NCBI GenBank assembly: GCA_030531205.1
Contig: JAUNOC010000001.1
Coordinates: 186,001-250,000 of the forward strand
DNA length: 64,000 nt
Reading direction: 5' to 3'
Origin: Phascolarctobacterium sp.
GTDB taxonomy: Bacteria > Bacillota > Negativicutes > Acidaminococcales > Acidaminococcaceae
The notes under the pieces were generated by a model that saw only the letters and a program-made list of their open reading frames with translations, was not told the DNA's origin and did not search any database. This document shows positions 2,518 through 6,545 of this stretch, piece by piece. The stretch's first letter is position 1. Every line of letters begins with the position of its first letter. A program made the position numbers and the translations under genes.

Positions 2518-2543
2518 AAAAGCTCGCATCAGCGGGCTTTTTT
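2518..2543. terminator. Bidirectional rho-independent terminator between DUF554 gene and noc
   Basis: Stem AAAGCTCGC / GCGGGCTTT with a four-base loop, flanked by A-rich sequence on one side and six T on the other, so it can end transcription from both sides. The noc stop codon (2529-2531) lies inside the hairpin. Confidence 0.7.
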
Positions 2544-3296
2544 GTTAGGGAATTTTACTGTAACAATCACATCATCACCAACAAGTTTGTAATTATAATC
2601 TGTTTTCACGCCACCCTTATTCATCATGTCCACAATCTGCTTAAAGGAGTTAAGGTAAATCCTAATATCGTTAGCAACAATACTGCGGTGGGTGGGTTCC
2701 TTTGGGGCCAACAAACGCTCAATATAATCATCTGTTTGCGCCACATTAAGTTGATAACGGCTCACATGTTCCAACACTTCCTGCCTTTGCTCTTGGGGAA
2801 CTTTCAGCAAAGCCCGGGCATGACGTTCCGTCAATTTTTCTTCTAAAATCTCTTTGCGTAATTCAGCATCCAACCGCAACAGACGAATTTTATTGGCAAT
2901 GGCGGCCTGAGTTTTGCTGACCCGCTCCGCCAATTGTTCTTGCGTCAAATGAAACTCTTGCAACAAACTTTGCATGGCCTCCGCCTCTTCAAAGAAATTT
3001 AAATTTTGCCGTTGCAGATTCTCAATCAAAGCAATCTCTGCCTTTTGCTTGTCGTCATATTCCCCCAACACACAGGGAACTTCCGTCAGTCCTGCCAACT
3101 TGGCGGCACGCAAACGCCGCTCTCCTGCAATAAGAATATAATTGCCATCATCCTGACTTACCAAAAGGGGCTGCAAAATGCCATATCTTTTAATACTGTC
3201 CGCCAGTTCCTGTAATTCCTGCTCCGCAAAATGCTGACGGGGTTGATAAGGGTTAGTTTGAATTTTGGTAATTTCCACATGTTGAATATTGTTCAT
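2529..3296 (-). CDS. noc: Noc-like ParB-family nucleoid occlusion protein
   Basis: 255-residue second ParB paralogue. It has NPYQPRQHF, GERRLRAAKLAG and the helix-turn-helix segment LTQEQLAERVSKTQAAIAN, but lacks the long basic N-terminus of the parB product. Position next to rsmG and mnmG is the classical Noc locus; Noc binds its own palindromic sites and inhibits division over the nucleoid. It overlaps rsmG by four bases (ATGA). Its 3' end forms part of a bidirectional terminator. Noc rather than a second partition ParB is inferred mainly from position. Confidence 0.85.
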   Translation of the reverse strand: MNNIQHVEITKIQTNPYQPRQHFAEQELQELADSIKRYGILQPLLVSQDDGNYILIAGERRLRAAKLAGLTEVPCVLGEYDDKQKAEIALIENLQRQNLNFFEEAEAMQSLLQEFHLTQEQLAERVSKTQAAIANKIRLLRLDAELRKEILEEKLTERHARALLKVPQEQRQEVLEHVSRYQLNVAQTDDYIERLLAPKEPTHRSIVANDIRIYLNSFKQIVDMMNKGGVKTDYNYKLVGDDVIVTVKFPNKKAR

Positions 3297-4000
3297 AAGG
3301 GCTCCTTTGCTGCCGTACCCGCCTTGCGGGGATATTTATTTGGCGTTGTTTTTATTTTTTCTATAATCACTAAAGTCCGTTTATCTTCAAGATTTGGCAA
3401 TTTTACGTTTTTAATTTCGGCGATTTTCCCGCCCAACAAATTAGTAGCGTTTTCCGCCTCTGTAATTTCTTCTTCCGAATCCGCCTTCATGGCAATGAAC
3501 TTGCCACCAACTTTAACCAAAGGTAAGCAAAACTCCGCCAACACATTCAATCTTGCCACTGCCCTGGCAGTGACAAAATCAAATTGTTCCCGTAAATTTT
3601 TATCCTTACCTGCATCCTCCGCCCTTGCGTGGATGGTGGTAACATTTTGCAGTCCTAATTCTGCCGTCAAAGTATCTAAAAATTTTAACCGTTTTGCCAA
3701 AGAATCAAGCAAAGTTAGTTTAATGCTGGAGTCAAAAATTTTTAAAGGTACACCGGGAAACCCTGCCCCCGTACCCACATCCGCCAAAGTTGCGTTATGC
3801 ATTGCAGTATCATAGGCGGACAAACTGTCAATAAAATGCTTCACTGCCACATCCTCCGGCTCAGTCAAAGCCGTAAGGTTCATAACCTTATTAGTTTCAG
3901 TCAGCAAGTCATAATATTTTACAAACTGGCTGATTTGCGTGTCAGTCAAAGTTATGCCTGCCTGTTTTAAGTTGGTTAAAAAAATATCTTGAAAAATCAT
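3293..4000 (-). CDS. rsmG: 16S rRNA (guanine527-N7)-methyltransferase RsmG
   Basis: 235-residue RsmG (GidB). The SAM-binding motif is LADVGTGAGFPGVPLKI, followed by LLDSLAKRLKFL and VTARAVARLNVL. ATG at 4000 is chosen: the in-frame extension to 4123 runs through a GC-rich palindrome and the neighbouring DUF559 gene and adds nothing RsmG-like, whereas MIFQDIFLTNLKQAG is a normal RsmG start. It modifies G527 of 16S rRNA. It usually directly follows mnmG; here a DUF559 element separates them. Confidence 0.95.
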   Translation of the reverse strand: MIFQDIFLTNLKQAGITLTDTQISQFVKYYDLLTETNKVMNLTALTEPEDVAVKHFIDSLSAYDTAMHNATLADVGTGAGFPGVPLKIFDSSIKLTLLDSLAKRLKFLDTLTAELGLQNVTTIHARAEDAGKDKNLREQFDFVTARAVARLNVLAEFCLPLVKVGGKFIAMKADSEEEITEAENATNLLGGKIAEIKNVKLPNLEDKRTLVIIEKIKTTPNKYPRKAGTAAKEPL

Positions 4001-4011
4001 AATAACAAGCT

Positions 4012-4582
4012 CAGGAACATTAGAAGCCCCCGCCCTTGCGGGGGCTGTCGCTTTTAGGAACGTGGTTGCGACTGGGGGTGCGAATTGATACGGTCTTTTA
4101 CAACCCTGTCTATCTCTGAACATACCGCATAAAAATTATTATCCACATCCAAATTAGAAAAACGGATAAGCTTAATATTTTGTGCTGCAAGGTTTTCTGC
4201 CCTTATTCTGTCTTGTTCTTCTTTTTTAGGACTGTAATGTCCTCCTCCATCCAGTTCTACTGCCACCAATGCTTTTGTACAGAAAAAATCAACAATATAA
4301 TTTTGAATTACCTTTTGTCGCTGAAAGCGTACTTCATACCCCCGCAAAAATTGATACCACAGCTTATTTTCCCAAGGTATCATATTCTTTCGGAGTTTTC
4401 TGGCAAATTTTACATTGTATGAATTGTAATCGTACATTGCCTCTTAATCGTCCCTTTCTTTTGTCTTTGTTTATTTGATCTTTATGTCAACATAAATAAC
4501 TGCGTAATCAGCACCCCCAGTCACCTTTCTGTGTTCCTATAGGTGCCAGCCCCCGCAAAGGCGGGGGCTATTCAAGTTCCTG
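4012..4582. mobile_element. DUF559-carrying element with long palindromic terminal inverted repeats
   Basis: Left end 4025-4081 and right end 4511-4569 are inverted copies. Each begins with a 22-base palindrome (AGCCCCCGC, four-base loop, GCGGGGGCT; 4025-4046 and 4548-4569, 21/22 alike when inverted), continues with a block ending TAGGAAC (11/15 alike) and ends with the identical 12-mer GACTGGGGGTGC (4070-4081, inverted at 4511-4522). An outer CAGGAAC also matches on both sides (4012-4018, 4576-4582). The only gene inside is the DUF559 ORF. No transposase is present, so mobility would have to come from the DUF559 protein or in trans. Boundaries and mobility are inferred. Confidence 0.65.
4054..4437 (-). 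CDS. DUF559 (Vsr-like fold) endonuclease domain protein
   Basis: 127 residues. The core matches the DUF559 / very-short-patch-repair-like nuclease family: RKLRKNMIPWENKLWYQFLR, FQRQKVIQNYIVDFFC (catalytic Asp in VDF), LVAVELDGGGHY (E and D of the nuclease core) and IKLIRFSNLDV. The natural role of the family is unclear; a nicking or repair nuclease is likely. The last nine or so codons lie inside the left terminal inverted repeat, so gene and repeat co-evolved or the gene was captured whole. A weak RBS (AGAGG) precedes ATG 4437. Confidence 0.85.
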   Translation of the reverse strand: MYDYNSYNVKFARKLRKNMIPWENKLWYQFLRGYEVRFQRQKVIQNYIVDFFCTKALVAVELDGGGHYSPKKEEQDRIRAENLAAQNIKLIRFSNLDVDNNFYAVCSEIDRVVKDRINSHPQSQPRS

Positions 4583-4593
4583 CAATCTTATTC

Positions 4594-4620
4594 TAATTAC
4601 CGGAACATCTTACATTCCCT
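4594..4620 (+). repeat. Copy of the 27-bp interspersed repeat
   Basis: TAATTACCGGAACATCTTAC and following bases, in the gap between the DUF559 element and the 3' end of mnmG. The rest of this gap (4583-4673) shows only AT-rich filler without a gene. Confidence 0.45.
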
Positions 4621-4673
4621 ATGCTTTACGCCTTAACCTCTACGCCCTATTCTTCCCTGTCCCCATACACCTG

Positions 4674-6545
4674 CTAAAACGAGTGACGTTTTATAAGTTC
4701 CAACGCCACCATAAGTACATTTATATCCGCCGGGCTGACACCGCTGATGCGTACCGCCTGGCCAATATTCAACGGCCTTATCTTATCCAATTTCTCTGCT
4801 GCCTCGCTGGACAGTTCTTTAACTGTATGATAATCAAAATCTTGGGGAATACTCTTATTTTCCAACCTCAACGCCCGTTCCACTTCCGCTTTTTGTTTTT
4901 CAATATAGCCGGCATATTTAACATGAATTTCCACCTGCTCTGCCGTGTGTCTATCCAATGTTGGCAAGCCAAAGGCCTCGCTTAAATCAGCATAACTGAC
5001 TTCCCGCCGCCGCAAAAGTTCTAAAGCCGATGTACCCTCACGCAAAGGCGTAGTACCCATAGCCGCCAACTTGGCATTTTCATCGTCATGTGGTGCAATA
5101 TGTTTATGTTGCAAAGCCGTCAAAGCCCTTGTCAAACCATCCCTTTTAGCAGTGAATTTGGCATAACGCCCATCCGTTACCAAACCAATATCCCGACCCA
5201 ACTGAGTCAACCGCAAATCTGCATTATCCTGACGCAAAAGCAAGCGATATTCTGCCCTGCTGGTCATCATACGATAGGGCTCATTAGTGCCTTTTGTTAC
5301 CAAATCATCAATCAAAACTCCAATATATGCCTGGTCACGGCGCAAAATTATTGGCGGCAAATTCCGTAATTTGCGTACTGCATTGATGCCGGCAATCAAC
5401 CCCTGACCTGCCGCCTCCTCGTAACCGCTAGTGCCATTGGATTGACCGGCGCTGTAAAAACCACTGATTTGCTTATGTTCCAAACTGGGCTGCAATTGCA
5501 GAGGATTAAGGCAATCATAATCAATGGCATAGCCCACCCGCATCATCTTGGCATTTTCCAAACCAGGAATCGTCCGCAAAAACTCCAACTGCACATCCGC
5601 CGGCAAAGAGGAACTCATTCCCTGAATATACATTTCCGTTGTGTTGCGGCCCTCCGGCTCAATAAATAGTTGATGCCGTTCCTTGTCCGCAAACCGCACA
5701 ATTTTCGCCTCAATGCTAGGGCAGTAGCGAGGGCCAACCCCTTCAATCATACCATTGAACATACCCGACAAATGTAAATTCTTCTTAATAATTTCGTGGG
5801 TCTTGGCGTTGGTATAACTCAAATAACAAGGAATCTGCTCCCTGCTTTTCACCTCGTCCATATAGGAAAAATTCTGCAAAACCTCATCCCCATATTGAGG
5901 TTCGGTCTTGGAAAAATCAATACTACGTTTGTCAATACGAGCAGGAGTACCGGTCTTAAACCGCATCAGTTCAATGCCGTTTTCCAGCAAACTGGCGCTT
6001 AATTTGTTGGCAGCACGTAACCCGTTGGGGCCACTTTCATAATTCACGGAACCATAGACAATGCGCCCTTTAAGATATGTGCCGGTACAGAGAATAACAC
6101 AGGGTGCTTCAAAAACTTCGCCCGTTTCCGCCTCCACCCCTTGCACTGCACCATTTTTCACCAACAATTTATCTATCATCAGTTGTTTTAATTCCAAATT
6201 TTCCTGCCGCTCAATAATGCCCTTCATTAAATGATGGTAAAAGGGCTTGTCCTCCTGTCCGCGCAGAGAATGAACAGCGTAACCCTTACCCGTATTCAAA
6301 AGCCGCATTTGCAGGCAAGCCACATCCGCACTTAAGGCCATCTGTCCGCCCAAAGCGTCAATCTCCCGCACCAGTTGTCCCTTAGCAGAACCTCCGATAC
6401 TGGGGTTACAGGGCATCAGCGCCAGATTGTCCAAACTTAAAGTTGCCAACATAGTTTTACAACCCAAACGGGCAGCCGCCAAAGCCGCCTCACACCCCGC
6501 ATGTCCCGCACCTATAACAATTATGTCAAACTTTTCAATTTGCAT
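4674..6545 (-). CDS. mnmG: tRNA uridine 5-carboxymethylaminomethyl modification enzyme MnmG
   Basis: 623-residue MnmG (GidA). The FAD-binding Rossmann motif is at the N-terminus (IIVIGAGHAGCEAA), followed by PCNPSIGGSAKG and the family signatures VGYAIDYDCLNP and SGYEEAAGQGLIAG, with the usual C-terminal helical domain (RPLNIGQAVRISGVSPADINVL). With MnmE it installs the cmnm5 group on U34 of certain tRNAs. An extended -10-like TGGTATAAT lies upstream of the ATG, suggesting its own promoter. It is separated from mnmE by 541 bp holding hairpin element A. Confidence 0.98.
   Translation of the reverse strand: MQIEKFDIIVIGAGHAGCEAALAAARLGCKTMLATLSLDNLALMPCNPSIGGSAKGQLVREIDALGGQMALSADVACLQMRLLNTGKGYAVHSLRGQEDKPFYHHLMKGIIERQENLELKQLMIDKLLVKNGAVQGVEAETGEVFEAPCVILCTGTYLKGRIVYGSVNYESGPNGLRAANKLSASLLENGIELMRFKTGTPARIDKRSIDFSKTEPQYGDEVLQNFSYMDEVKSREQIPCYLSYTNAKTHEIIKKNLHLSGMFNGMIEGVGPRYCPSIEAKIVRFADKERHQLFIEPEGRNTTEMYIQGMSSSLPADVQLEFLRTIPGLENAKMMRVGYAIDYDCLNPLQLQPSLEHKQISGFYSAGQSNGTSGYEEAAGQGLIAGINAVRKLRNLPPIILRRDQAYIGVLIDDLVTKGTNEPYRMMTSRAEYRLLLRQDNADLRLTQLGRDIGLVTDGRYAKFTAKRDGLTRALTALQHKHIAPHDDENAKLAAMGTTPLREGTSALELLRRREVSYADLSEAFGLPTLDRHTAEQVEIHVKYAGYIEKQKAEVERALRLENKSIPQDFDYHTVKELSSEAAEKLDKIRPLNIGQAVRISGVSPADINVLMVALELIKRHSF

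Follow-up and report, generated by a model that had tools for sequence, protein, structure and literature searches.

A DUF559 nuclease gene between inverted hairpin ends in Phascolarctobacterium: a probable self-mobilising element with predicted triplex-like ends

RAYT transposases are thought to move REPs in trans, and a purine-motif intrastrand triplex needs a mirrored third strand. G/C-rich triplex motifs (PIT/TM repeats) are present in over 260 bacterial genomes, with 23 in E. coli MG1655; the E. coli motif forms a triplex in vitro, the origin of the motifs was called unclear, and no mobility-providing activities were found near them (Holder et al. 2015, PMC4666352). For the DUF559 family (PF04480), neither mobility nor repeats are described in the titles and abstracts of the open-access literature that names it, and an earlier description in the subscription literature is possible. 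Here we describe a DUF559 gene that lies between inverted hairpin ends in a stretch of 64,000 nucleotides from a Phascolarctobacterium genome (the window), and conclude that it probably represents a copy of a mobile element that is autonomous, its ends being mobilised, as we propose, by the DUF559 nuclease.

The locus combines properties of several known systems. As in the REP/RAYT system, an autonomous gene is placed between inverted hairpin repeats, enzyme and repeats form cognate pairs, and hairpin repeats are dispersed through the genome without the gene, often as inverted pairs. However, the gene between the repeats belongs to PF04480 and would encode a PD-(D/E)XK-type nuclease, whereas RAYT is a Y1 HUH transposase, and the ends follow a mirror-purine (triplex) rule, whereas REPs carry a GTAG tag. 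With the PIT/TM repeats the ends share the order C1-loop-G1-spacer-G2, the mirrored third strand, and a dispersed, intergenic, sometimes inverted-pair occurrence, but here they bound gene-bearing units, while no associated mobility gene is reported for PIT/TM repeats (PMC4666352). The protein resembles the Vsr/EDxHD enzymes (I-Bth0305I) and Neisseria 3hrl both in predicted fold and in the acidic residues and histidine that it conserves. It differs in that it is short and single-domain and that its gene resides not in an intron or next to a cytosine methyltransferase gene but in a multicopy element whose ends are structured. Finally, short gene-less copies that have the ends of the autonomous element and a shared internal deletion are typical of MITEs, although the parent element here has no recognised transposase.

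The three-block structure originally proposed for the terminal repeats was borne out (Table 1). The outer palindromes match at 21 of 22 positions when inverted; gene-ward of hairpin 1, a short second hairpin with TAGGAAC in its loop forms the middle block, and this is followed by the 12-mer GACTGGGGGTGC, which is identical at both ends. As single-stranded DNA, each end folds into a pair of neighbouring hairpins, more stably than shuffled sequences do (z about -2.9 and -3.6). The open reading frame does extend into the rsmG-side repeat, its last codons (..HPQSQPRS) lying inside it. The hairpin 2 block of that side is also present in dispersed copies of families A and B (see below), and the G2 tract next to it, assigned by eye for family A, matches the other end families in position and composition. 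The inverted repeat is not a chance match, since the genome holds a further copy of the whole 571-bp unit and the end sequences are found again at dozens of sites. A search of positions 3900-4700 for a known RNA family gave only sub-threshold Rfam matches.

Table 1. Features of the element and its surroundings (positions in the window)
Feature	Position	Strand	Remarks
Whole element, family A	4012..4582	.	Outer CAGGAAC..GTTCCTG flanks; supported by second copy and inverted arms
Inverted arms	4012-4061 / 4533-4582		82% complementary over 50 nt
Further inner inverted pair	4070-4086 / 4506-4522		
Hairpin 1, rsmG-side end	4025..4046	+	AGCCCCCGC-CCTT-GCGGGGGCT
Hairpin 2, rsmG-side end	4047..4072	+	GTCGC..TTTTAGGAACGTGGTT..GCGAC
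Purine tract G2, rsmG side	4073..4081	+	TGGGGGTGC; candidate third strand for hairpin 1
DUF559 (PF04480) nuclease gene	4054..4437	-	127 aa
Purine tract G2, mnmG-side end	4511..4522	-	12-mer equals 4070-4081 after inversion
Hairpin 2 region, mnmG-side end	4523..4547	-	GGCACCTATAGGAACACAGAAAGGTGAC type
Hairpin 1, mnmG-side end	4548..4569	-	AGCCCCCGC-CTTT-GCGGGGGCT
Outer dispersed repeat copy adjoining element	4594..4608	-	ATGTTCCTGTGATTA type
mnmG	4674-6545	-	One side of element
rsmG	about 3293-4000	-	Other side of element
ATGTTCCTGTGATTATA repeats	2462, 4594, 6702, 6739, 26322, 29907, 51390, 55314, 55368, 56416		

A second dispersed repeat, ATGTTCCTGTGATTATA, has 10 matches in the window compared with 0.21 expected. 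It often occurs in inverted pairs that enclose other hairpin elements and flanks many hairpin copies; it may be a preferred target of these copies, or another element.

In 28 relatives that have mnmG and rsmG on one stretch, the gap between the two genes is 4-153 bp, and in 24 of these relatives it is no more than 29 bp, compared with 676 bp in the window, and these near-empty junctions agree with the proposal that an insertion has split the pair. An element-wide DNA search of 99 relatives recovered only short trivial matches and no copy of the unit, so the gene and its repeats are not a fixed feature of this junction. Copies at other loci, which a mobile unit was expected to have, were found within the genome itself: a second full copy (C13:23870-24440) is 89% identical across all 571 bp, and more than 20 gene-less pieces of the window element ends, about 35-83 bp long, are dispersed elsewhere. 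By these sequence comparisons, the window unit is a mobile element. Of the same-genus relatives, a single one had rsmG on the stretch examined, and there another open reading frame and a different hairpin end lie upstream of the gene. Near rsmG, the window also contains two ParB-like genes close together (521-1486 and 2529-3296), one on each strand.

The encoded protein matches PF04480 with E=1.1e-24, and E23, D50, E61, D63, H67 and D76 (window numbering), all invariant in a 22-member alignment, are putative catalytic-type residues. An AlphaFold (AF2) model of the protein (pLDDT 86) matched 3hrl (Z 14.8), the I-Bth0305I domain (3r3p, Z 12.4) and Vsr (1cw0, Z 10.1); resolvases and TnsA came next at Z 6-7, a likeness that may reflect a common arrangement only. 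The protein thus has both the predicted fold and the invariant acidic and histidine residues that characterise the Vsr/EDxHD superfamily, and we infer that it is a nuclease with a predicted single-domain Vsr/I-Bth0305I-type fold. Matches in NCBIfam, PADLOC and PHROGs were exclusively to DUF559-like, homing or methyl-directed nucleases, and the element protein contains no recognisable strand-transfer domain. Toxin chains also appeared in the profile search, but with E>0.09 they were discarded as chance matches.

The genome was surveyed as 1.33 Mb on 15 contigs, copies being examined in the stretches around matches. It contains eight DUF559 genes, all eight between inverted double-hairpin ends. 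These genes form four subfamilies, and there are four hairpin sequences, one for each subfamily: family A (the window and C13 copies), family B (C10), family C (two identical copies on C4) and family D, whose gene-bearing copies number two on C6 and one on C12. Nuclease and ends are paired in a cognate manner. Copies within family C and within family D are alike through the hairpin end and diverge just outside it. The Y1/RAYT transposase domain PF01797 had no match in this genome, while the control, E. coli, does match.

Family D documents the multiplication of gene-less copies. Besides three full units of 567-568 bp, it includes six gene-less units of 201-233 bp, each at a further locus of its own. 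All six have both ends intact and lack the same approximately 335 bp of the gene, with a single junction (CCAA|TGACAGAGAAGT); five of the six retain the first codons of the nuclease gene. With the same ends and one internal deletion at several loci, these copies derive from the gene-bearing form by internal deletion, and a single deletion followed by multiplication marks them as MITEs moved in trans. Identical 5-bp repeats flank three family-D copies (GAAAG, GAAAG and GAGAG), a near-repeat flanks one, and none were found at the others; as only some copies have such repeats, a 5-bp target duplication, of the constant length that marks MITEs and DDE-type IS, is possible. Gene-less units often have ends of two different families, in the manner of mixed-end MITEs: A and a further type, A and B, or B and a C-like end (L020, L022, L025, L039 and others).

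For a survey of DUF559 loci, each gene was given the score of the best inverted repeat that its two flanks form with each other, and scores of 16 or more were considered strong. Among sampled Negativicutes and Clostridia loci, 26 of 37 DUF559 genes reached this score, compared with 3 of 156 control genes (1 of 55 window genes and 2 of 101 genes of other loci); the 37 genes are not all independent, as several are from the expansion in a single genome and three are family D; eight of the 37 are from the Phascolarctobacterium genome itself. Hairpin ends were absent at all three high-scoring control genes. The 11 DUF559 genes without strong inverted repeats may represent decayed, domesticated or unrelated uses. 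In other bacteria, sampled from named plasmid-collection records, 11 of 22 DUF559 genes reached a score of 16, in Deinococcus (four), Sphingomonas (three), Pseudanabaena, Novosphingobium, Qipengyuania and Azospirillum; the other half, in which strong inverted repeats were not found, may likewise be domesticated or serve another purpose. DUF559 units often split tight gene groups, such as sufB/sufC, the transhydrogenase subunits and paaD/paaZ, and in three Deinococcus species a DUF559 gene occupies three different positions within the same hpa cluster. In one closed genome (G047) there are 11 DUF559 matches, and the end sequence of these units matches 45 times, whereas a search of four other genomes gave no match to that end; in a set of alike copies from G047, the flanks diverge at the unit ends.

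Single-domain copies of PF04480 are seldom seen in the phylum, with 6 of 249 genomes having one at E<=1e-15, and no inverted repeats were found at the five such loci outside the Phascolarctobacterium genome, two of which are cut by contig ends. Genome G044 contains two 97%-identical DUF559 units of 546 bp at different loci (L129 1913-2458 and L130 1935-2480), neither of which has hairpin ends; there may therefore be a further type of end. On three cyanobacterial plasmids (L153, L159, L172), DUF559 genes without strong inverted repeats lie beside a DUF1156, DUF499 or BREX-type methyltransferase gene, which suggests a defence-related use. A fused form of the nuclease was also seen, as DUF559 matches within open frames of 1600-1740 aa (G061, G062, G073, G009, G093).

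Across the end families, a purine tract (G2) lies 2-35 nt beyond the hairpin (C1-loop-G1), with a second short hairpin or a spacer in between. We determined whether G2 mirrors G1, counting G opposite G and A or T opposite A, with hairpins chosen by a fixed rule, G1 permuted among 17 distinct families, and the better of two orientations taken for observed and permuted pairs alike. The observed agreement was 0.847, compared with 0.619 +/- 0.040 for permuted pairs, and none of 5000 permutations reached it, while a direct-repeat ('guide') rule was rejected as not significant (0.592 vs 0.585). Examples are G1 GAAGAGGG with G2 GGGTGATG and G1 AGAGGGG with G2 GGGGTGT. Four families (G028a, G028b, D. 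aetherius and B) fit poorly, in part because the automatic choice of hairpin was wrong. The pyrimidine filter removed window family A, which stands outside these 17; read by eye, its five G are flanked by T at positions that hold C in the mirror. A purine arm followed by its mirror image, with A or T allowed opposite A, is the pattern that defines PIT/TM repeats, and the ends of the DUF559 units would accordingly be triplex-like, forming a predicted intrastrand triplex.

The DUF559 gene of E. coli is ycjD. In E. coli MG1655, ycjD (1351407-1351760) lies beside triplex motif 9 (1351204-1351239; PMC4666352); the gene ends inside a decayed motif, CCCTCTCCCTGAAAGAGCGAGGG, and the intact motif lies about 165 bp farther on. 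From 23 motifs in 4.64 Mb, we roughly estimate a chance of about 0.4% that any one gene the size of ycjD has a motif no more than 250 bp away. Triplex-type motifs are likewise found on both sides of a Neisseria DUF559 gene related to the solved protein 3hrl. That the hairpin ends are built like these unexplained dispersed repeats suggests the nuclease element as their spreader, and the PIT/TM repeats found in E. coli, Neisseria and cyanobacteria would then be non-autonomous relatives of DUF559 elements. We consider the chances about even that DUF559 proteins are, more broadly, dedicated mobilisers of an unrecognised, phylum-crossing class of elements with triplex-acting ends, from which the PIT/TM repeats of these organisms arose.

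The strongest competing explanation is that the DUF559 gene behaves as a parasite akin to a homing endonuclease, entering inverted repeat pairs that already existed and were spread by another enzyme. The nearest solved relatives do include the homing endonuclease I-Bth0305I, solitary homing-type genes rely on host repair, and the ends occur without the gene too. However, within a single genome the nuclease subfamilies each have their own ends, the family-D copies that lack the gene arose from the gene-bearing form by deletion and are not its empty precursor, the genome has no RAYT/Y1 domain, and the units are found at many unrelated loci across several phyla rather than at one cognate allelic site. 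On balance, we regard such parasitism as unlikely. We attach a still lower probability to the nuclease being mere cargo of a MITE family moved by another transposase encoded elsewhere in the genome: although our transposase search of this genome covered the Y1 family only, DUF559 is the cargo in every case, both in the four subfamilies of this genome and, with different ends, in other phyla, and such ends were not seen around control genes.

It is very improbable that the gene encodes a host Vsr-like mismatch-repair enzyme that happens to lie amid independent repeats. Strong inverted repeats distinguish DUF559 from control genes, the unit is present or absent at mnmG-rsmG, and multicopy units have exact ends, the family-D data in particular strongly disfavouring this explanation for element-borne copies. 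Nevertheless, the fold is Vsr-like, some DUF559 genes lack inverted repeats, and Caulobacter VsrA, also a DUF559 protein, is interpreted as a mismatch-repair enzyme (PMC12907096); a repair function may therefore hold for some solitary DUF559 genes. The original prediction had left open whether the unit is a self-mobilising nuclease element or a MITE that captured a nuclease. The former fits better, since DUF559 is the sole common gene, four subfamilies have matching ends, the family-D copies are deletions, and the arrangement recurs in other phyla.

Under self-mobilisation, the nuclease would recognise the folded ends, as a hairpin or an intrastrand triplex, probably on single-stranded or supercoiled DNA, and would cut at these ends or at the target. 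Gene-bearing copies would in this way move themselves as well as gene-less copies in trans. Copying and joining would probably be left to host replication or repair, because the protein has a nuclease domain only. Cutting and transposition by the DUF559 nuclease are proposed from comparative evidence.

If a DUF559 nuclease moves triplex repeats, the origin of such repeats would be testable with one gene and a donor of roughly 230 bp. It would also provide a role for a large family that is still named 'protein of unknown function', add one more nuclease class to the DNA-mobilising enzymes, and represent a natural case in which DNA triplex geometry is apparently under selection.
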